Assembly (NCBI GenBank): GCA_001298555.1
Contig: LJCW01000372.1
Coordinates: 124,001-188,000, forward strand
From: Actinobacteria bacterium OV450
GTDB taxonomy: Bacteria; Actinomycetota; Actinomycetes; Streptomycetales; Streptomycetaceae
Length of the DNA: 64,000 bases
Direction of reading: 5' to 3'
Of the stretch, positions 51,505 to 59,161 are shown piece by piece (within the stretch, counting starts at the first letter, position 1; each line of letters opens with the position of its first letter). The notes under the pieces were generated by a model that was given only the letters and a program-made list of their open reading frames with translations, was not told where the DNA came from and made no database searches. The position numbers were made by a program, and so were the translations under genes.

Positions 51505-52380
51505 ATGGACACCGACCGTCTGCCGGGCTGCTACCGCCACCCGGACCGCGACACGGGCATCCGCTGCACGCGCTGCGAGCGCCCCATCTGCCCCGAGTGC
51601 ATGATCAGCGCCTCCGTCGGCTTCCAGTGCCCCGACTGCGTCCGTGACGGCTCCGGTACGGGACACCGCCCGGCGGCGAACGTACCGCGCACCGTCGCGG
51701 GCGGCGCGGTCGCCGCCGATCCCCACCTCGTCACCAAGATCCTCATCGGGGTCAACGCGGCGGTGTTCCTGGTGGGACTGCTCGCACCGGCGGTCGTCGT
51801 GCAGCTGGAGCTGCTCGGGCGGTACGTCGAATACTTCGGCGGCCCCGTCGAGGGGGTCTCCACCGGCCAGTTCTACCGGCTCCTGAGCTCGGTGTTCCTG
51901 CACGTGGAGTGGTGGCACATCGGGGGAAACATGCTGGCCCTGTGGGTGATCGGCGGCCCGCTGGAGGCGGCTCTGGGCCGGGTCCGCTACCTCGCCGTGT
52001 TCCTGCTGGCGGGTCTGGGCGGAAGCGCCCTCGTCTATCTGCTGACCGCGCCGAACACACCGACCCTCGGCGCCTCCGGCGCGATCTTCGGCCTGCTCGG
52101 CGCCACCGTCGTCCTGGTGCGCCGCCTGCGCTACGAGATGCGGCCGGTGATCACCATGGTCGTGCTCATGCTGGTGCTGACCTTCGTGCCCTTCGGCGGC
52201 AGCCTGTCCGTGTCCTGGCAGGCCCACATCGGCGGCCTGGTGACCGGTCTGCTGGTCGGTCTGGGCATGGTGGGACCGGCCGCCGGCAGGAAGCGCGCGC
52301 TGGTCCAGTGGGGGACCTGCGCGGCGGTGTTCCTGCTGGCAGCGGCGGTGGTCATGGTCCGGACGGCCGAACTCACCTGA
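51505..52380 (+). CDS. Rhomboid intramembrane serine protease with zinc-binding N-terminus
   Basis: 291 residues. The N-terminus has a cysteine/histidine cluster, CYRHPDRDTGIRCTRCERPI then CPECMISASVGFQCPDC, a B-box-like zinc site. The rhomboid core follows with six or seven helices: WWHIGGNMLALWVIGGP, the catalytic serine in TLGASGAIFGLLGA near 190, and the catalytic histidine in SWQAHIGGLVTGLLVG near 244. It cleaves membrane proteins within the bilayer. It is convergent with crgA. Confidence 0.94.
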   Translation: MDTDRLPGCYRHPDRDTGIRCTRCERPICPECMISASVGFQCPDCVRDGSGTGHRPAANVPRTVAGGAVAADPHLVTKILIGVNAAVFLVGLLAPAVVVQLELLGRYVEYFGGPVEGVSTGQFYRLLSSVFLHVEWWHIGGNMLALWVIGGPLEAALGRVRYLAVFLLAGLGGSALVYLLTAPNTPTLGASGAIFGLLGATVVLVRRLRYEMRPVITMVVLMLVLTFVPFGGSLSVSWQAHIGGLVTGLLVGLGMVGPAAGRKRALVQWGTCAAVFLLAAAVVMVRTAELT

Positions 52381-52404
52381 TCACACCGGCGTCAACACTC
52401 CACA

Positions 52405-52462
52405 GAGTTATCCACAGATCTTCTGTCTTTTCCTCAGGTGTGGATGACGCTGTGGATAACTC
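52405..52462. other. Inverted pair of perfect DnaA boxes
   Basis: GAGTTATCCACAG (52405-52417) and its exact complement CTGTGGATAACTC (52450-52462) face each other across 32 bp, with a third match TGTGGATGA at 52439-52447. The outer two contain perfect TTATCCACA. The rest of the 154-bp gap between the convergent rhomboid and crgA genes has no gene. The inverted arms could also form an RNA hairpin. Confidence 0.7.
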
Positions 52463-52534
52463 ATGGGGAGAGCTTGTCGGACCCGGTTCGGCTGTGCTCT
52501 CAGGCGCTCGATCCGGGCCCGGCTCCGGGCCCGG

Positions 52535-52789
52535 CTACTTCCACTGCGTGGACACGCCGAAGCCCGCCGCGATGAAGCCGAATCCGACCACGATGTTCCA
52601 GTTGCCCAGCGCCTCGATCGGCAGCTGGGTCTCGGTCACGTAGAAGACGACGATCCACGCGAGACCGATCAGGAAGAACGCCAGCATGACCGGGGCGACC
52701 CAGCCGCGGCTCCCCAGCCTGATCTGCTGCGCCTGCTTCGCCGGCGGCGGCGTGTAGTCGTCCTTCTTGCGGATACGTGACTTCGGCAC
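52535..52789 (-). CDS. crgA: Cell division protein CrgA
   Basis: 84 residues: basic N-terminus [16 protein letters not shown], then two membrane helices (about 32-50, [19 protein letters not shown], and 61-78, [17 protein letters not shown]) and the short end STQWK. CrgA coordinates growth and septum formation and inhibits FtsZ-ring assembly in Streptomyces aerial hyphae. It is divergent from the DUF881 gene, as in mycobacteria. Confidence 0.96.
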
Positions 52790-52856
52790 GAGGGGCTCTC
52801 CTGTCGATGCGCTGGGGACCTTGCCTGCCCCGGGCGTCCGTTAGCGTAGTGGACCT

Positions 52857-53669
52857 GTGGCGTTGAAGGAGAAGGGTACGTTGAGCAATTCCGACGACTC
52901 CTCCGCGGGTCCCCGTCGCCGGGCCAGAGCGGTCCGGCTCCTGACGGCCGCCGTTTTCGCCCTGGCCGGCCTCATCTTCGTCACCAGTTTCAACACCTCC
53001 AAGGGTACGAACATCCGGACGGACGCCTCGCTCCTCAAGCTGTCCGACCTGATCCACGAGCGCAGCCAGAACAACGCGCTGCTCGAACAGAGCACCGCCG
53101 CCGTCCGCGGCCGGGTGGACGCCCTCGCCGAGCGCGACGACGGCAGCACCAAGGCCGAGGACGCCAAGCTGGCCGCCCTGCGGGTCGCCTCCGGCACCGA
53201 GCCGCTGTCCGGCAAGGGTCTCACCGTCACGCTGAACGACGCCCCGCCGAACGCCACCGCCCGCATCCCCAACGTGCCCGAGCCGCAGCCCAACGACCTG
53301 GTGATCCACCAGCAGGACCTCCAGGCCGTGGTGAACGCCCTGTGGCGGGGCGGCGCCCAGGGCATCCAGGTCATGGACCAGCGGCTGATCTCCACCAGCG
53401 CCGTGCGCTGCGTCGGCAACACGCTGATCCTCCAGGGGCGCGTCTACTCGCCCCCGTACAAGGTGTCGGCGGTCGGCGACCCCGCCGCGCTGCGCAAGGC
53501 GCTCGCCGCCTCCCCGGCCCTGCAGAACTACCAGCTGTACGTGACGGCGTACGGGCTCGGCTGGAAAGTGGACGAGCACAGGGAGCTGACACTCCCCGGC
53601 TACTCCGGCACAGTGGACCTCCACTATGCGAAGCCGCTGGATGCCACCTCCGCGACCAGTACGCCGTGA
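52857..53669 (+). CDS. DUF881 family protein
   Basis: 270 residues from the GTG; a TTG at 52881 with AGGAGAAGGG upstream is an alternative start (262 residues). One N-terminal membrane helix (about 27-45, VRLLTAAVFALAGLIFVTS), a coiled-coil-like stretch (LIHERSQNNALLEQSTAAV), and the DUF881 fold containing GKGLTVTLNDAPP and NALWRGGAQGIQVMDQRLIS. DUF881 proteins occur next to crgA and division genes in actinobacteria; function unknown. The sortase gene overlaps its 3' end by 44 nt. Confidence 0.9.
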   Translation: MALKEKGTLSNSDDSSAGPRRRARAVRLLTAAVFALAGLIFVTSFNTSKGTNIRTDASLLKLSDLIHERSQNNALLEQSTAAVRGRVDALAERDDGSTKAEDAKLAALRVASGTEPLSGKGLTVTLNDAPPNATARIPNVPEPQPNDLVIHQQDLQAVVNALWRGGAQGIQVMDQRLISTSAVRCVGNTLILQGRVYSPPYKVSAVGDPAALRKALAASPALQNYQLYVTAYGLGWKVDEHRELTLPGYSGTVDLHYAKPLDATSATSTP

Positions 53670-54396
53670 CGTCGTACTGCGCCTGGTGGTGCGGACGTTC
53701 AGCGAGGTCTGCCTGACGGCGGGCACGCTGATCGTCCTGTTCGTCGCGTACGTGCTGCTGTGGACCGGGGTCGAGGCCGACCGGGCCATGGGCGGGGAGA
53801 TGGCCCGCATGCGCGACCGCTGGGCCGCGGCACCGGCCGCCGCGCCCTCCACCGCACCCCCGGGCGGGCCGGCCGCCGCGCCGCAGCCGGGCCCCGCACC
53901 GACGGAGCGGGGGGAGGCCGCGTACCCGCCGGGCCGGGCCTTCGCCGAGATGTACGTCCCGCGCTTCGGCCCGGACTGGAACAAGCCGGTCCTGGAGGGC
54001 ACCGGCACGGAGCTGCTCAAGAGGGGCCTCGGCCACTACCCCGGCACGGCCCGCCCCGGCGCCACCGGGAACTTCTCGGTGGCCGGCCACCGGCGGACGT
54101 ACGGCGACCCCTTCAAGGACTTCCCCGAGCTGCGCCCCGGCGACGCCGTGATCCTCAAGGACGCGACCACCTGGTACACGTACACGGTCCGGGGCGGGCC
54201 GCTGCGGACCGTTCCCACCGACGTGGGGGTGGTCGACCCCGTGCCGCACGGGTCGCCGTTCACCGCACCCGGCCGGTACCTGACGCTGACGACCTGCGAT
54301 CCGGAGTGGGGCCACAGCCACCGGCTGGTCGTGTGGGCGGAGCTGACCGGGACCCGGACGGTCGCGCAGGGCCGGCCGGAGGGTTTGCCGAGCTGA
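53626..54396 (+). CDS. Class E sortase (first of three)
   Basis: 256 residues, starting within the end of the DUF881 gene. One N-terminal membrane helix (about 27-46), a Pro/Ala-rich spacer, then the sortase barrel: catalytic histidine in FSVAGHRRTYGDPFKD near 153, cysteine in LTLTTCDPEWGHSHR near 224 and the arginine of HRLVVW. Sortases attach surface proteins to the cell wall. It diverges from the other two in the cluster (TYGDPF instead of THGEPF; CDPEW instead of CTPEF), so its sorting signal may differ. Confidence 0.9.
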   Translation: MRSRWMPPPRPVRRDVVLRLVVRTFSEVCLTAGTLIVLFVAYVLLWTGVEADRAMGGEMARMRDRWAAAPAAAPSTAPPGGPAAAPQPGPAPTERGEAAYPPGRAFAEMYVPRFGPDWNKPVLEGTGTELLKRGLGHYPGTARPGATGNFSVAGHRRTYGDPFKDFPELRPGDAVILKDATTWYTYTVRGGPLRTVPTDVGVVDPVPHGSPFTAPGRYLTLTTCDPEWGHSHRLVVWAELTGTRTVAQGRPEGLPS

Positions 54397-54487
54397 CCCA
54401 CCCGTCACGGCCGGTGGCTTTAGTCTGTTCGCGTACCGCCCCCGCGGTGCGTGGGTCGATCGTGGACGGACAAAGGAAGCAGACGGC

Positions 54488-54664
54488 ATGTACGGCTGGA
54501 TCTGGCGGCATCTGCCGGGCAACGCGTGGGTGCGCGCGCTGATCTCTCTCGTACTGGTCCTCGCAGTGGTCTTCGTGCTGTTCCAGTACGTCTTCCCGTG
54601 GGCCGAGCCGCTCCTCCCGTTCAACGACGTGACGGTGGACGAGGGATCGGGAGCCACTCCGTGA
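54488..54664 (+). CDS. Small membrane protein in sortase cluster
   Basis: 58 residues, MYGWIWRHLPGNAWVRALIS at the start, then one helix (about 17-36, rich in Leu and Val) and an acidic end (FNDVTVDEGSGATP). ATG at 54488 follows AAAGGAAG. Its stop TGA overlaps the GTG start of the next gene, so the two are translationally coupled, which supports it being a real gene despite its size. Function unknown. Confidence 0.8.
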   Translation: MYGWIWRHLPGNAWVRALISLVLVLAVVFVLFQYVFPWAEPLLPFNDVTVDEGSGATP

Positions 54665-55299
54665 GCGCGCGCATTCTGGTTGTCGACAACTACGACAGCT
54701 TTGTCTTCAACCTGGTCCAGTACCTGTACCAGCTCGGCGCCGAGTGCGAGGTGCTGCGCAACGACGAGGTCGAACTCGCCCACGCGCAGGACGGGTTCGA
54801 CGGCGTACTGCTGTCACCGGGACCCGGTACCCCGGAGCAGGCCGGCGTCTGCATCGACATGGTCCGCCACTGCGCCGACACCGGGGTCCCGGTCTTCGGC
54901 GTGTGCCTGGGCATGCAGTCCATGGCCGTGGCGTACGGCGGCGTCGTCGACCGGGCGCCCGAGCTGCTGCACGGGAAGACCTCGCCGGTCGTGCACGAGG
55001 GCCTCGGGGTCTTCGCGGGCCTGCCGTCGCCGTTCACCGCGACCCGCTACCACTCGCTCGCGGCCGAGCCGCAGAACCTGCCGGACGTGCTGGAGGTCAC
55101 CGCGCGCACCGAGGACGGGATCATCATGGGGCTGCGGCACCGGGAGCACGACGTCGAGGGTGTGCAGTTCCACCCCGAGTCGGTGCTGACCGAACACGGC
55201 CACCGGATGCTCGCGAACTGGCTGGTGCGCTGCGGGGACGCGGGGGCCGTCGGGCGCTCGGTGGGGCTGGCCCCGGTGGTGGGCAAGGCCGTCGCGTGA
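54661..55299 (+). CDS. pabA: Aminodeoxychorismate/anthranilate synthase component II
   Basis: 212 residues from the GTG at 54661 (VSARILVVDNYDSFVFNLVQ). A class I glutamine amidotransferase: oxyanion-hole SPGPGTPEQAG, nucleophile cysteine in FGVCLGMQSMA near 82, and catalytic His-Glu in GVQFHPESVLTEHG near 170. It supplies ammonia for p-aminobenzoate (folate) or anthranilate (tryptophan). No component I is nearby. The location before pknB is the same as mycobacterial trpG/pabA. It overlaps both neighbours by 4 nt. Confidence 0.92.
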   Translation: MSARILVVDNYDSFVFNLVQYLYQLGAECEVLRNDEVELAHAQDGFDGVLLSPGPGTPEQAGVCIDMVRHCADTGVPVFGVCLGMQSMAVAYGGVVDRAPELLHGKTSPVVHEGLGVFAGLPSPFTATRYHSLAAEPQNLPDVLEVTARTEDGIIMGLRHREHDVEGVQFHPESVLTEHGHRMLANWLVRCGDAGAVGRSVGLAPVVGKAVA

Positions 55300-56108
55300 C
55301 CGCGGTCGCGCCGTCCGCGCCCACGGAGGGCCGGGCCGCGCGCCGCAGGGCAGCGCAGGAGGCCGCGAAGCGCCCGCGGAGGCGGGGCGGCCGCCGCCGT
55401 CGCCGGCGGCGGCCCGCGTCGGGAGGTCCGGTGGTCGTCGCGAGCCGGCTCGCCGGGGAGCTGTTCATCACGCTGGGCGTGGTGATGCTGCTGTTCGTCG
55501 CCTACCAGCTCTGGTACACGAACGTACTGGCGGAGCGGACGGCGAACGGGGCCGCGGGATCGCTGCGGCAGGGCTGGGAGCGCGGCGGCGGCGCCGCCGC
55601 CCCGCCCGTCTCGGCGTTCGAGCCGGGGCAGGGCTTCGCGATCCTCCACATCCCGAAGCTGGACGTGAAGGTCCCGGTGGCGGAGGGGATCAGCAAGCCG
55701 AAGGTGCTCGACAAGGGGATGGTCGGGCACTACGGGGACGGCGCCCTGAAGACGGCGATGCCGGCCGACAAGCAGGGCAACTTCGCGCTGGCGGGCCACC
55801 GCAACACCCATGGCGAACCGTTCCGCTACATCAACCGGCTGGCGCCCGGGGATCCCGTCGTGGTCGAGACGCAGGACGCGTACTACACGTACGAGATCAC
55901 CTCGTCGCTGGCGCAGACGCCGCCCACGAACGTGTCGGTGATCAAGCCGGTGCCGGAGGGCTCGGGCTTCACCGCCCCCGGCCGGTACATCACGCTGACG
56001 ACCTGCACCCCGGAGTTCACGAGCACCTACCGGATGATCGTATGGGGCAGGATGACCGACGAACGCCCCCGCAGCCAGGGTGCTCCGCCCGCGCTGACCA
56101 GCCCGTAA
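55296..56108 (+). CDS. srtE: Class E sortase (second of three)
   Basis: 270 residues, GTG start overlapping the pabA stop. A very basic N-terminus ([16 protein letters not shown]), a membrane helix (about 51-69, LFITLGVVMLLFVAYQLWY), then AILHIPKLDVKVPVAEG and the catalytic residues: histidine in ALAGHRNTHGEPFRYIN near 167, cysteine in ITLTTCTPEFTSTYRMIVWG near 236 with the arginine in YRM. In S. coelicolor two adjacent class E sortases at this place attach the long chaplins through LAXTG signals; this and the next gene look like that pair. Confidence 0.93.
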   Translation: MTAVAPSAPTEGRAARRRAAQEAAKRPRRRGGRRRRRRRPASGGPVVVASRLAGELFITLGVVMLLFVAYQLWYTNVLAERTANGAAGSLRQGWERGGGAAAPPVSAFEPGQGFAILHIPKLDVKVPVAEGISKPKVLDKGMVGHYGDGALKTAMPADKQGNFALAGHRNTHGEPFRYINRLAPGDPVVVETQDAYYTYEITSSLAQTPPTNVSVIKPVPEGSGFTAPGRYITLTTCTPEFTSTYRMIVWGRMTDERPRSQGAPPALTSP

Positions 56109-56121
56109 GGACGAACAAGCA

Positions 56122-56841
56122 GTGTCACGTGCCGCGCCGTCGCCCCAGAGCCGCAGTGTGCTCGCCGGGTTCCTGAGCCTGCTGGGCGAGTTCCTGATCA
56201 CCGTGGGCCTGGTCATGGGCCTGTTCGTCGCGTATTCGCTGTGGTGGACGAACGTGCTCGCGGACCGGCAGGCGTCGGCGCGCGGCGACGAGGTCCGCCG
56301 GCAGTGGCAGACCGCCGCCCCGGGCACGAGTGCGCCCGAGGCGCCGGGGGCGCTGGACACCCAGGACGGAATCGGGTTCCTGCACGTGCCGGCGATGAGG
56401 AACGGCGAGGTCCTCGTCAAGAGGGGCACGGCGCCGGACGTCCTCAACGACGGTGTCGCCGGGTACTACACGGACCCGGTGAAGGCGGCCCTGCCGTGGG
56501 AGGCCTCGGGGAACTTCTCCCTGGCGGCGCACCGGGACGGGCACGGCGCGAAGTTCCACGACATCGACAAGGTGAAGAACGGCGACGCGGTCGTCTTCGA
56601 GACCCGCGACACCTGGTACGTCTACAAGGTGTTCGCGGAGCTGCGCCAGACGTCGAAGTACAACGTGGACGTGATCTCCGCGGTCCCGAAGGAGTCCGGA
56701 CGGACCGCGCCGGGCCGCTTCATCACGCTCACGACCTGCACGCCGGTGTACACCTCGAAGTTCCGGTACGTCGTGTGGGGCGAGCTGGTGCGCACGGAGA
56801 AGGTGGACGCGAAGCGCACGCCGCCGGTCGAGCTGCGCTGA
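56122..56841 (+). CDS. srtE: Class E sortase (third of three)
   Basis: 239 residues, GTG at 56122, 13 nt after the previous sortase. Membrane helix at about 17-37 (FLITVGLVMGLFVAYSLWW), then IGFLHVPAMRNGEVLVKRG. Catalytic residues: histidine in SLAAHRDGHGAKFHDID near 136, cysteine in ITLTTCTPVYTSKFRYVVWG near 205, arginine in FRY. It probably acts with the preceding enzyme. It converges on pknB across a strong terminator. Confidence 0.93.
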   Translation: MSRAAPSPQSRSVLAGFLSLLGEFLITVGLVMGLFVAYSLWWTNVLADRQASARGDEVRRQWQTAAPGTSAPEAPGALDTQDGIGFLHVPAMRNGEVLVKRGTAPDVLNDGVAGYYTDPVKAALPWEASGNFSLAAHRDGHGAKFHDIDKVKNGDAVVFETRDTWYVYKVFAELRQTSKYNVDVISAVPKESGRTAPGRFITLTTCTPVYTSKFRYVVWGELVRTEKVDAKRTPPVELR

Positions 56842-56849
56842 GCCGCAGA

Positions 56850-56889
56850 AAGCCCCTGTGGGCGGCCTCAGAGCCGCCCACAGGGGCTT
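56850..56889. terminator. Bidirectional terminator, sortase/pknB
   Basis: A perfect 17-bp stem (56850-56866 with 56873-56889) with a 6-nt loop between the convergent sortase and pknB stop codons. Confidence 0.9.
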
Positions 56890-56921
56890 GTGCGTGCCTC
56901 CGGGGACCCGGAGGCCGCCGG

Positions 56922-58946
56922 CTAGCGGCGGCCGCCTGTCAGGCCGTCGAAGATCCCTCCGCCGTTGTTGCCGCCGTCCTGCTGGCCGGCGACCGTCGTG
57001 ACGTTGATGACCCGGCCCGCTTCCACGGGGGTGCCCGCCGGCGGGTCGGTGACCATGACGATCGCCCTGTCGTCGGTCGGCCCCGCGATGACCTGGAGGT
57101 TCAGGCCCCGGCTCGCGAGGTCGGCCCTGGCCTGGGCGACGGTCTTGGTGATCAGCTGCGGGACCTGGGTCTGCGCTCCGGCCTTGGCGATCTGGATGTT
57201 GACCGTCGTGCCCACGGCGAGCTGCTCGCCCGGCTGGTACTGCTGCTGGACGACAGTCTTCGGCGGGGCGCCGGGGGAGTCGACCTCCGTGGTGCTGCCG
57301 AGCTTGAGCTTGGCGTCGGTGAGCGCCTTGACGGCCGCTTCCCGGGTTTTGCCGAGGAGGTCCGGCATATCGGACTTCGCCTGCTCCTTGGCGACCGTCA
57401 GCGTCACGGTCGAGCCCTTCTGGGCGGTGCCGCTCTTCGGGTCCTGGTCCAGGACGGTGCCGACGGCCCGGTCGGACTCCTGGGGCTTCCTCTCAACGGC
57501 GAAGCCCTTGTCCTTGAGCAGCTTCTCCGCGTCCTCGAACTTGAGGTTGAGGACGTTGGGCACCGGCAGGTTCGGGGCGCCCGAGGAGACCTTGACCGTG
57601 ACCGTCGAGCCCTTGTCGACCTTGGTGTCCGGTGCCGGGTTCTGCGAGCAGATGCTGCCCTTGGGCTGGTTGTCGCAGGGCTCGTCGGCTTCCTTCGCGA
57701 CCTTGAGGCCGACGTTGTCGCCGGTCTTCTGGGCCTGCTCGAAGGTCTGGCCGATGAGCTTGGGCACGTTGGGCCGGTTGTCGGCGCCGCCGCTGAACAG
57801 GGAGCGGCCGATGAGGATGGCCCCGACCAGGACGAGGACGCCCGCGGTCACCAGCAGGATCGTCGAGGCCCGGCTCTTCTTCTGCGGCCGGCGGCCGTGG
57901 CCGCCCTGGTCGTAGCCGCCCTGGCCCTGGTCCCCGTAGCCGTACCCGCCGTCGCCGGGGGGCATCGGCGGCATCATCGACGTCTGCCCGGCGTCGGTGG
58001 CGCGCAGGGCGGTGGTGGGCTGGTCGTAGCCCTGCGGGCCGTAGCCGCCCGCCTGGTCGGGGTAGCCGTAGCCGGGGGCGCCCATGGCGACCGCGGCGGC
58101 GACGGGCTGGCCGTCGAGGCAGGCCTCGATGTCGGCGCGCATCTCGTCGGCGGACTGGTAGCGGTAGTCGGGGTCCTTGACCAGTGCCTTCAGGACGATG
58201 GCGTCCATCTCGGGCGTGATCTCGGGGTCGAAGTTCGACGGAGGCTGCGGTTCCTCCCGTACGTGCTGGTACGCGACCGCGACCGGGGAGTCGCCGATGA
58301 ACGGCGGCCGGACGCTGAGCAGCTCGTACAGCAGGCAGCCCGCGGAGTAGAGGTCGGAACGCGCATCGACCTGCTCGCCCTTGGCCTGCTCCGGGGAGAG
58401 GTACTGGGCGGTGCCGATGACGGCCGCGGTCTGCGTCATGGTCATGCCGGAGTCGCCCATGGCGCGGGCGATGCCGAAGTCCATGACCTTGACCTGGCCC
58501 GTGCGGGTGAGCATGACGTTGGCGGGCTTGATGTCACGGTGCACGATGCCGGCGCGGTGCGAGTATTCGAGGGCCTGGAGGATACCGATGGTCATTTCCA
58601 GGGTGCGCTCGGGCAGCAGCTTGCGGCCGGAGTGCAGGAGCTCGCGCAGGGTGGAGCCGTCGACGTACTCCATCACGATGTACGGGATGGAGATGTTGTC
58701 GACGTAGTCCTCGCCGGTGTCGTAGACCGCGACGATCGCCGGGTGGTTGAGCGACGCGGCCGACTGGGCCTCGCGCCGGAACCGGGCCTGGAAGGACGGG
58801 TCGCGGGCGAGGTCGGCGCGCAGGGTCTTGACGGCGACGGTACGGCCGAGCCGGGTGTCGTGGGCGAGGTAGACCTCGGCCATGCCACCGCGGCCGAGCA
58901 CGTGGCTCAGCTCGTACCGGCCGCCGAGGCGACGCGGCTCTTCCAT
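56922..58946 (-). CDS. pknB: PASTA-domain serine/threonine kinase PknB
   Basis: 674 residues from the ATG at 58946 (MEEPRRLGGRYELSHVLGRG). Intact kinase domain: K40 in VAVKTL, H136-R-D138 in IVHRDIKPANVML, D156 in MDFGIARAM, and activation loop TMTQTAAVIGTAQYLSPEQ. A Gly/Tyr/Gln-rich linker precedes a membrane helix (about 344-364) and four extracellular PASTA repeats (for example NVPKLIGQTFEQAQKTG and VPNVLNLKFEDAEKLLKDKG), which sense muropeptides or lipid II. It controls cell-wall growth and division. It is the last gene of the fhaB-pstP-SEDS-pbpA-pknB run. Confidence 0.97.
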   Translation of the reverse strand: MEEPRRLGGRYELSHVLGRGGMAEVYLAHDTRLGRTVAVKTLRADLARDPSFQARFRREAQSAASLNHPAIVAVYDTGEDYVDNISIPYIVMEYVDGSTLRELLHSGRKLLPERTLEMTIGILQALEYSHRAGIVHRDIKPANVMLTRTGQVKVMDFGIARAMGDSGMTMTQTAAVIGTAQYLSPEQAKGEQVDARSDLYSAGCLLYELLSVRPPFIGDSPVAVAYQHVREEPQPPSNFDPEITPEMDAIVLKALVKDPDYRYQSADEMRADIEACLDGQPVAAAVAMGAPGYGYPDQAGGYGPQGYDQPTTALRATDAGQTSMMPPMPPGDGGYGYGDQGQGGYDQGGHGRRPQKKSRASTILLVTAGVLVLVGAILIGRSLFSGGADNRPNVPKLIGQTFEQAQKTGDNVGLKVAKEADEPCDNQPKGSICSQNPAPDTKVDKGSTVTVKVSSGAPNLPVPNVLNLKFEDAEKLLKDKGFAVERKPQESDRAVGTVLDQDPKSGTAQKGSTVTLTVAKEQAKSDMPDLLGKTREAAVKALTDAKLKLGSTTEVDSPGAPPKTVVQQQYQPGEQLAVGTTVNIQIAKAGAQTQVPQLITKTVAQARADLASRGLNLQVIAGPTDDRAIVMVTDPPAGTPVEAGRVINVTTVAGQQDGGNNGGGIFDGLTGGRR

Positions 58947-59161
58947 AACGTTGCAGCCCTCTCCGTCAGTCCCGACCGCACCCGTGTGTGGTCCGGCGGT
59001 GTGCTGTTCGCGCAAAGGCTACCGGCCGATCGTCGGTGATCGGTTCGTGACCACAGGCTGATACCGGACCGGTACCGTACGCTCGGATCCGGGCGAGAAC
59101 AGTGATGTGGATCACGCCAGTTCGGCTCCTGCGCCCCTGTGGGCCCCTGCGTGTTGTCCCG

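Follow-up and report, generated by a model that had tools for sequence, protein, structure and literature searches.

A SafA-like membrane microprotein is tied to class E sortases in a Streptomycetaceae gene cluster and is kept where the neighboring sortase is lost

We describe a run of six genes in a 64,000-nucleotide stretch of DNA from Actinobacteria bacterium OV450 (contig LJCW01000372.1, positions 124,001 to 188,000; hereafter the window, in whose coordinates positions are given). The run encodes a DUF881 protein, a class E sortase, a 58-residue membrane microprotein, the glutamine amidotransferase PabA and two further class E sortases (52857-56841), with all six genes at the positions first assigned to them. 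We put at roughly three in four the probability that the run belongs to the ordinary housekeeping locus for surface anchoring in the Streptomycetaceae, composed of three class E sortases and an accessory microprotein of the same kind as SafA. SafA, the small partner of the Actinomyces oris housekeeping sortase, reportedly carries an FPW motif and shields its sortase from the signal peptidase LepB2.

All three sortases exceed the curated cut-off (160 bits) of the family NF033747, which we used as the criterion for class E and which upholds their assignment in the original prediction. The first (53626-54396, plus strand, 256 aa, 244.0 bits) is designated SrtE3, a label coined here. The second (55296-56108, plus strand, 270 aa, GTG start at 55296, 253.6 bits) and the third (56122-56841, plus strand, 239 aa, 236.7 bits) occupy the positions of SCO3850 and SCO3849 and are referred to as SrtE1 and SrtE2. 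The microprotein (54488-54664, plus strand), which is of the SCO3852 type, has no match in Pfam or NCBIfam, and its profile has none in PDB; its structure is predicted as one long helix (residues 11-35, mean pLDDT 70.4), consistent with a one-helix membrane protein, with FPW following at residues 36-38. The gene run itself is real. We scanned named genomes with SrtE3, using six peptide patterns, two of which contain the TYGDP or C[DE]PEWG motifs of this enzyme and bias the scan towards them, and retained the top 80 of the 450 relatives found, the nearest of which are Streptomyces (the window genome has 9.2 Mb). All 80 loci place SrtE3 between DUF881 and the microprotein, and DUF881, sortase, microprotein and pabA follow one another in the same order in every one; thus, the arrangement is no chance juxtaposition.

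The microprotein had been proposed as a possible partner of a sortase, and both its conservation and its distribution agree with that proposal. It is found in 119 of 121 genomes of the genus (E <= 1e-6), and the two misses (G001 and G102) are assemblies of 630 and 1420 contigs. Across the class, a profile built from 17 sequences detects it in 183 of 296 genomes and in 76 of 114 genera (E <= 0.01), and class E sortase matches occur in 209 of the 296 (196 above the cut-off). With the 28 genomes of the window's genus left out, the microprotein and a class E match occur together in 155 genomes, a class E match occurs alone in 26, neither occurs in 87 and the microprotein alone in none (Fisher P value 2e-47, which ignores relatedness). 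One genus genome (G113:C243, locus L177) has the microprotein and no class E match, on a contig that ends just after pabA, so that an assembly gap is likely.

Gene order ties the two proteins together as well. Of 60 microprotein-centred loci, drawn from 57 genomes of 34 other families and picked among the listed matches so as to spread the genera, 58 have a class E sortase as the nearest tested gene upstream of the microprotein; one of the two exceptions (L250) is in a genome whose other copy has the sortase, and the genome of the second (L262) carries its class E match on a different contig. With start codons assigned by a script, the paired genes are no more than 13 nt apart in 52 of the 58 loci (median 3, largest gap 154). 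Sixteen loci have neither crgA, DUF881 nor pabA in view, and the pair is kept in 15 of them, while pabA stands closely behind the microprotein in 36 of the 60 loci. Thus, the tie of the microprotein to the sortase is stronger than its tie to PabA. Four genomes (G305, G167, G341 and G373) carry two copies of the microprotein each, and a sortase lies directly upstream of six of the seven copies that were fetched (L230, L231, L250, L251, L257, L258 and L267).

In the SafA type, the gene directly follows that of a housekeeping class E sortase and the product bears an FPW motif. The microprotein fits a sortase partner of this type in position, size, helix and motif. FPW marks the outer helix end in all 80 Streptomycetaceae sequences and in 49 of 60 class members (FP in 59 of 60), the 60 being 51-92 aa long. 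The position is that of the type in the 58 loci outside the family and, at a distance of 91 nt behind SrtE3, in the window, and is abandoned where SrtE3 has been lost (0 of 24 genomes, discussed below). A. oris SrtA (5utt), the sortase that SafA accompanies, matches SrtE3 at 101.9 bits. The guess of a partner is therefore right, but the partner belongs to an already described kind of sortase accessory protein. In the literature covered, we came across no description of a microprotein that accompanies class E sortases in Streptomyces, which is weak evidence because most subscription papers lay outside it.

The microprotein might instead be a regulator of the sortases, its conserved outer tail (LPFNDVTV) mimicking a substrate or serving as a gate, and not a shield. 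This juxtamembrane tail is almost invariant in Streptomyces (LPFN in 75 of 80, VTV in 80 of 80), and a tripeptide occupies the active site of the SrtE1 crystal (PMC5148588). However, LPFN is found in only 20 and VTV in 40 of the 60 class members, compared to 49 for FPW and 59 for FP, so that a motif at the helix end fits better than a substrate mimic, and we consider regulation by the tail unlikely.

Several observations weigh against a SafA-like role in the service of the sortases. The FPW motif is not universal, as 11 of the 60 class members counted above do not carry it in full. In 74 of 80 Streptomyces loci, the last 4 nt of the microprotein gene are shared with pabA, which could point to another role. 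Among the 26 genomes with a class E match alone, G282 proved on inspection to have the microprotein beside its sortase, but 25 remain (17 from family f26, G352 and seven with weak matches), and no microprotein was found beside the best class E matches fetched for these 25, some second matches being left out. In addition, G216 and G233 have the microprotein together with only a weak class E match that lacks a microprotein beside it. Some class E sortases therefore seem to manage without the microprotein. In family f26 (for example G174, G192 and G378) and G352 (loci L270-L287), class E matches exceed the cut-off in 14 of 18 genomes, and the 18 have either a partner-free sortase or a partner that has diverged too far to be seen; one member of family f26, G236, has the microprotein. 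The overlap with pabA, the near-universal presence in the genus sample and the retention of the microprotein without SrtE3 would all agree with a sortase-independent job connected with pabA or with the division block of crgA and pknB, adjacency to a sortase then reflecting inherited gene order. Such a job is nevertheless very improbable, given that 15 of the 16 loci with no crgA, DUF881 or pabA in view retain the sortase pairing and that none of the 155 microprotein genomes outside the genus is without a class E match.

To the proposal that the sortases were inserted around a folate gene, the class-wide gene order gives a divided answer. In a tree of 88 sortases, SrtE3 (100/100), SrtE1 (100/98) and SrtE2 (100/100) form one clade each, and 31 of 31 Streptomycetaceae rows fall in one group (99/98). 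SrtE1, SrtE2 and a fourth enzyme together (100/95) are sister to SrtE3, with the deep root not resolved in this tree, so that the first sortase does not group tightly with the other two and stands in a clade of its own, sister to both. As the microprotein is also conserved, neither of the two outcomes named beforehand as refuting the original reading was observed. Two sortases follow pabA in 20 of 20 loci from 16 other Streptomycetaceae genera, and a sortase lies upstream in 8 of the 20; the upstream sortases of these genera join the SrtE3 clade (14 rows, 100/99), and the second downstream sortase of G437, G440 and G455 falls outside the SrtE2 group. In other families, no sortase follows pabA in any of 37 loci with pabA and pknB in view, and the order DUF881-sortase-microprotein-pabA-pknB is a common arrangement in other families of the class. 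Thus, the pair of sortases behind pabA predates the Streptomycetaceae radiation, and SrtE3 stands at an inherited place. Judging from these sequences, it is SrtE1 and SrtE2, located between pabA and pknB, that seem to have been added in the Streptomycetaceae, and this part of the proposal survives. Insertion of all of the sortases around pabA is rejected, as the order DUF881-srtE-microprotein-pabA occurs in many families; since the arrangement is so common, loss of SrtE3 and the microprotein in other lineages is likelier than their insertion here.

The residues around the active site of SrtE3 (TYGDPF and CDPEW) had been taken to suggest a distinct sorting signal, a suggestion we do not retain. 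These motifs are a fixed signature of the SrtE3 subfamily: GHRRTYGDP is found in 78 of the 80 named loci (with TH in the other two) and TLTTC[DE]PEWG in 80 of 80, and the eight upstream sortases of other Streptomycetaceae genera have TYG[DN]P (seven) or THGDP (one) and TC[DE]P (seven, one unmatched). Motifs of the TYGDPF and CDPEW type are also present in S. avermitilis sortase E (5go5/5go6), which a Foldseek search returned as the top solved relatives of SrtE3 (63-65% identity); the SrtE3 model, of middling confidence (mean pLDDT 73.6), was used solely to find such relatives. Compared directly with solved chains, SrtE3 matches 5go5 at 247.6 bits and S. coelicolor SrtE1 (5cuw) at 120.5 bits. 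On this sequence evidence, SrtE3 is no exotic sortase; it clearly belongs to the same subfamily as S. avermitilis sortase E, of which it is an orthologue. Residues H155, C224, R233 and Y138 of SrtE3 are invariant across 26 aligned orthologues, and the genome's four own class E sortases align at the catalytic His, Cys and Arg and at the tyrosine of the beta3/beta4 loop, to which LAXTG recognition is tied in PMC5148588, the source also for the roles of the catalytic residues. Moreover, S. avermitilis sortase E reportedly favors LAXTG and also takes LPXTG (PMC9773336 and PMC9126251). Thus, with the triad and the tyrosine invariant and an orthologue that uses LAXTG and LPXTG, a new sorting signal is not indicated, and we reject it on this evidence. 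An inserted SrtE3 that is specialised for a variant signal of its own and has the microprotein as its dedicated partner would explain the subfamily-specific residues after the catalytic His and Cys, the separate clade and the place directly before the microprotein in all 80 kept loci. We regard this as improbable, because the orthologue has the common signal preference, the class-wide gene order makes the position of SrtE3 the old one, and the microprotein is kept in genomes without SrtE3.

SrtE3 varies in its presence within the genus. Class E matches per genome, counted in 150 genus genomes, number four in 82, two in 41, three in 17, five in 7, one in 2 and none in 1, and the presence of SrtE3 was assessed from these counts and from 40 loci picked by them, which are not a random sample. 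Among the genomes fetched, all 15 that have three to five class E matches carry a near full-length SrtE3 in place, and none of the 24 that have two carries an intact one. Eroded pieces of SrtE3 remain in place in G003 (81 bits), G117 (67 bits) and G111 (57 bits), with a marginal one in G088 (29 bits). A quick tree of five neighboring proteins with 52 rows (27 with SrtE3 and 25 without) requires 12 changes in its presence, of which 9 are forced by starred branches; gain and loss are indistinguishable in this tree, but loss is suggested by the eroded remnants and by how SrtE3 is distributed in the family. These sequence comparisons point to a SrtE3 that was lost many times, with S. coelicolor probably among the losers. 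In that species, SCO3854 is CrgA (PMC4416010) and SCO3855 a rhomboid protein (PMC4467639), and SCO3852 is the microprotein, which leaves SCO3853 for DUF881 and no number for a third sortase; judged from this gene numbering, S. coelicolor most likely lacks SrtE3 and has the microprotein.

The microprotein is kept in 30 of the 31 two-class genomes within G001-G120, and we therefore reject it as a partner of SrtE3 alone. The simplest clients of a microprotein kept without SrtE3 are SrtE1 and SrtE2, which suggests that it now serves these two enzymes. A wider proposal is that the accessory microprotein outlived its original enzyme many times and was re-targeted to the duplicated sortases past pabA, so that one SafA-type protein would guard several sortases and control chaplin anchoring and aerial growth; we offer this tentatively, at a little short of an even chance.

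Four of the five junctions in the gene run overlap or are within 13 nt, as had been noted. DUF881 (52857-53669, plus strand, 270 aa; PF05949, E 5.5e-46, matched in Pfam only) overlaps SrtE3 by 44 nt, if the first ATG is the SrtE3 start; GTGA overlaps join the microprotein to pabA (54661-55299, plus strand, 212 aa, GTG start; NF005849 at 367 bits against a cut-off of 308) and pabA to SrtE1, and 13 nt separate SrtE1 from SrtE2. The overlap of the microprotein, which had been read as coupling it to a sortase, does exist but couples it to PabA. The one loose junction of the run is the stretch of 91 nt (54397-54487) between SrtE3 and the microprotein (31-105 nt in the 80 named loci). This loose junction contains the sequence TAGTCTG (54421-54427, plus strand), 67 nt before the microprotein start, and the pattern TA[GC][TCG]CTG precedes the microprotein, at a median of ~55 nt before the start, both where SrtE3 is present (93 of 95 regions) and where it is absent (23 of 25). 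The pattern was picked after viewing the sequences and relatedness was not controlled; base-shuffled copies gave means of 2.9 and 0.6. A scan with the sigma-70 consensus found no promoter, and weak terminator-like matches overlap at 54402-54418. There is probably a transcription joint within the gene run at this point, and we tentatively read the conserved element as a promoter.

We propose the following model for the locus. Anchored in the membrane through one N-terminal helix each, the three class E sortases would cleave C-terminal LAXTG (and LPXTG) signals of secreted proteins, which would then be attached to the cell wall. The microprotein would be the accessory subunit of these sortases, and its FPW motif, at the outer helix end, may help to shield a sortase from signal peptidase. 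The common class-wide unit would be DUF881-srtE-microprotein-pabA-pknB, with sortase and microprotein translationally coupled, and duplication would have placed SrtE1 and SrtE2 between pabA and pknB before the Streptomycetaceae radiated. SrtE3 would have stayed in the old place and then been lost repeatedly, in S. coelicolor among others, and the microprotein would have been kept, behind the conserved promoter-like element and coupled to pabA, with SrtE1 and SrtE2, and SrtE3 where present, as its likely clients.

The conserved block is flanked by crgA (52535-52789, minus strand; PF06781 and NF002595 above cut-off) and ends with a pknB-type Ser/Thr kinase gene with PASTA-like repeats (56922-59015, minus strand; sequence read by eye). 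Rfam gave no structured RNA at gathering score in 52000-57500. At locus L162 (G002:C197), a local rearrangement has left the rhomboid and peptidyl-prolyl isomerase genes across the cluster and in inverted orientation. The genome's fourth class E sortase (C387:10071-10790, 222 bits; L004 1498-2304 minus strand; L128) lies beside a YidC-like protein (by eye), and ∼2.4 kb away a secreted protein ends in LASTG, a hydrophobic stretch and RRRR. Other candidate sortase substrates are encoded on C89, C158, C99 and C339 (L129, L131, L133 and L134), with LAETG, LAHTG, LADTG and LATTG, respectively, followed by a hydrophobic stretch and a basic tail; those on C89 and C158 exceed the NF041528 cut-off and those on C99 and C339 fall below it. 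C367 and C338 are above the NF041528 cut-off, and no L[AP]xTG tail was found in them with the pattern used.

The novelty is modest and has three parts: the SCO3852-type protein is linked to class E sortases, the polarity of the locus is reversed, and SrtE3 has been lost repeatedly with its partner kept. The reversal is that the seemingly extra sortase sits in the old place, and the two studied sortases of S. coelicolor would be the additions. An unannotated, near-universal Streptomyces membrane microprotein, encoded beside the chaplin-anchoring enzymes of the aerial surface, thereby acquires a testable role, for which the repeated loss of SrtE3 provides a natural experiment.

The locus can be compared with four known systems. 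Like SafA, the microprotein is small, has one helix, follows a class E sortase in most families and carries FPW. Unlike SafA, the Streptomycetaceae microprotein is parted from SrtE1 and SrtE2 by pabA, is coupled to pabA and often has no sortase before it. The mycobacterial block of crgA, DUF881, trpG and pknB has the same backbone genes as the window but is not known to contain a sortase or the microprotein; on the class-wide pattern, the mycobacterial arrangement seems to have arisen by loss and not to be ancestral. S. avermitilis sortase E (5GO5/5GO6) shares the motifs of SrtE3, with 63-65% identity on the solved domain, and has been described as an isolated enzyme. In S. coelicolor, SCO3848 to SCO3852 encode a Ser/Thr kinase, a 253-aa and a 352-aa protein (SrtE2 and SrtE1), a 212-aa glutamine amidotransferase and a 69-aa hypothetical protein, ordered as in the window, according to a table in PMC6273383, which gives like genes in the same order for S. 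clavuligerus and S. griseus and ends before the SrtE3 position. Its two class E sortases anchor chaplins, and acidic and basic N-terminal parts of the 352-aa SrtE1 are needed for its function (PMC5148588); SrtE1 of the window, at 270 aa, has only a short basic N-terminal extension (55296-55430). S. coelicolor has two class E sortases, and the window locus has a third, SrtE3, before the microprotein.

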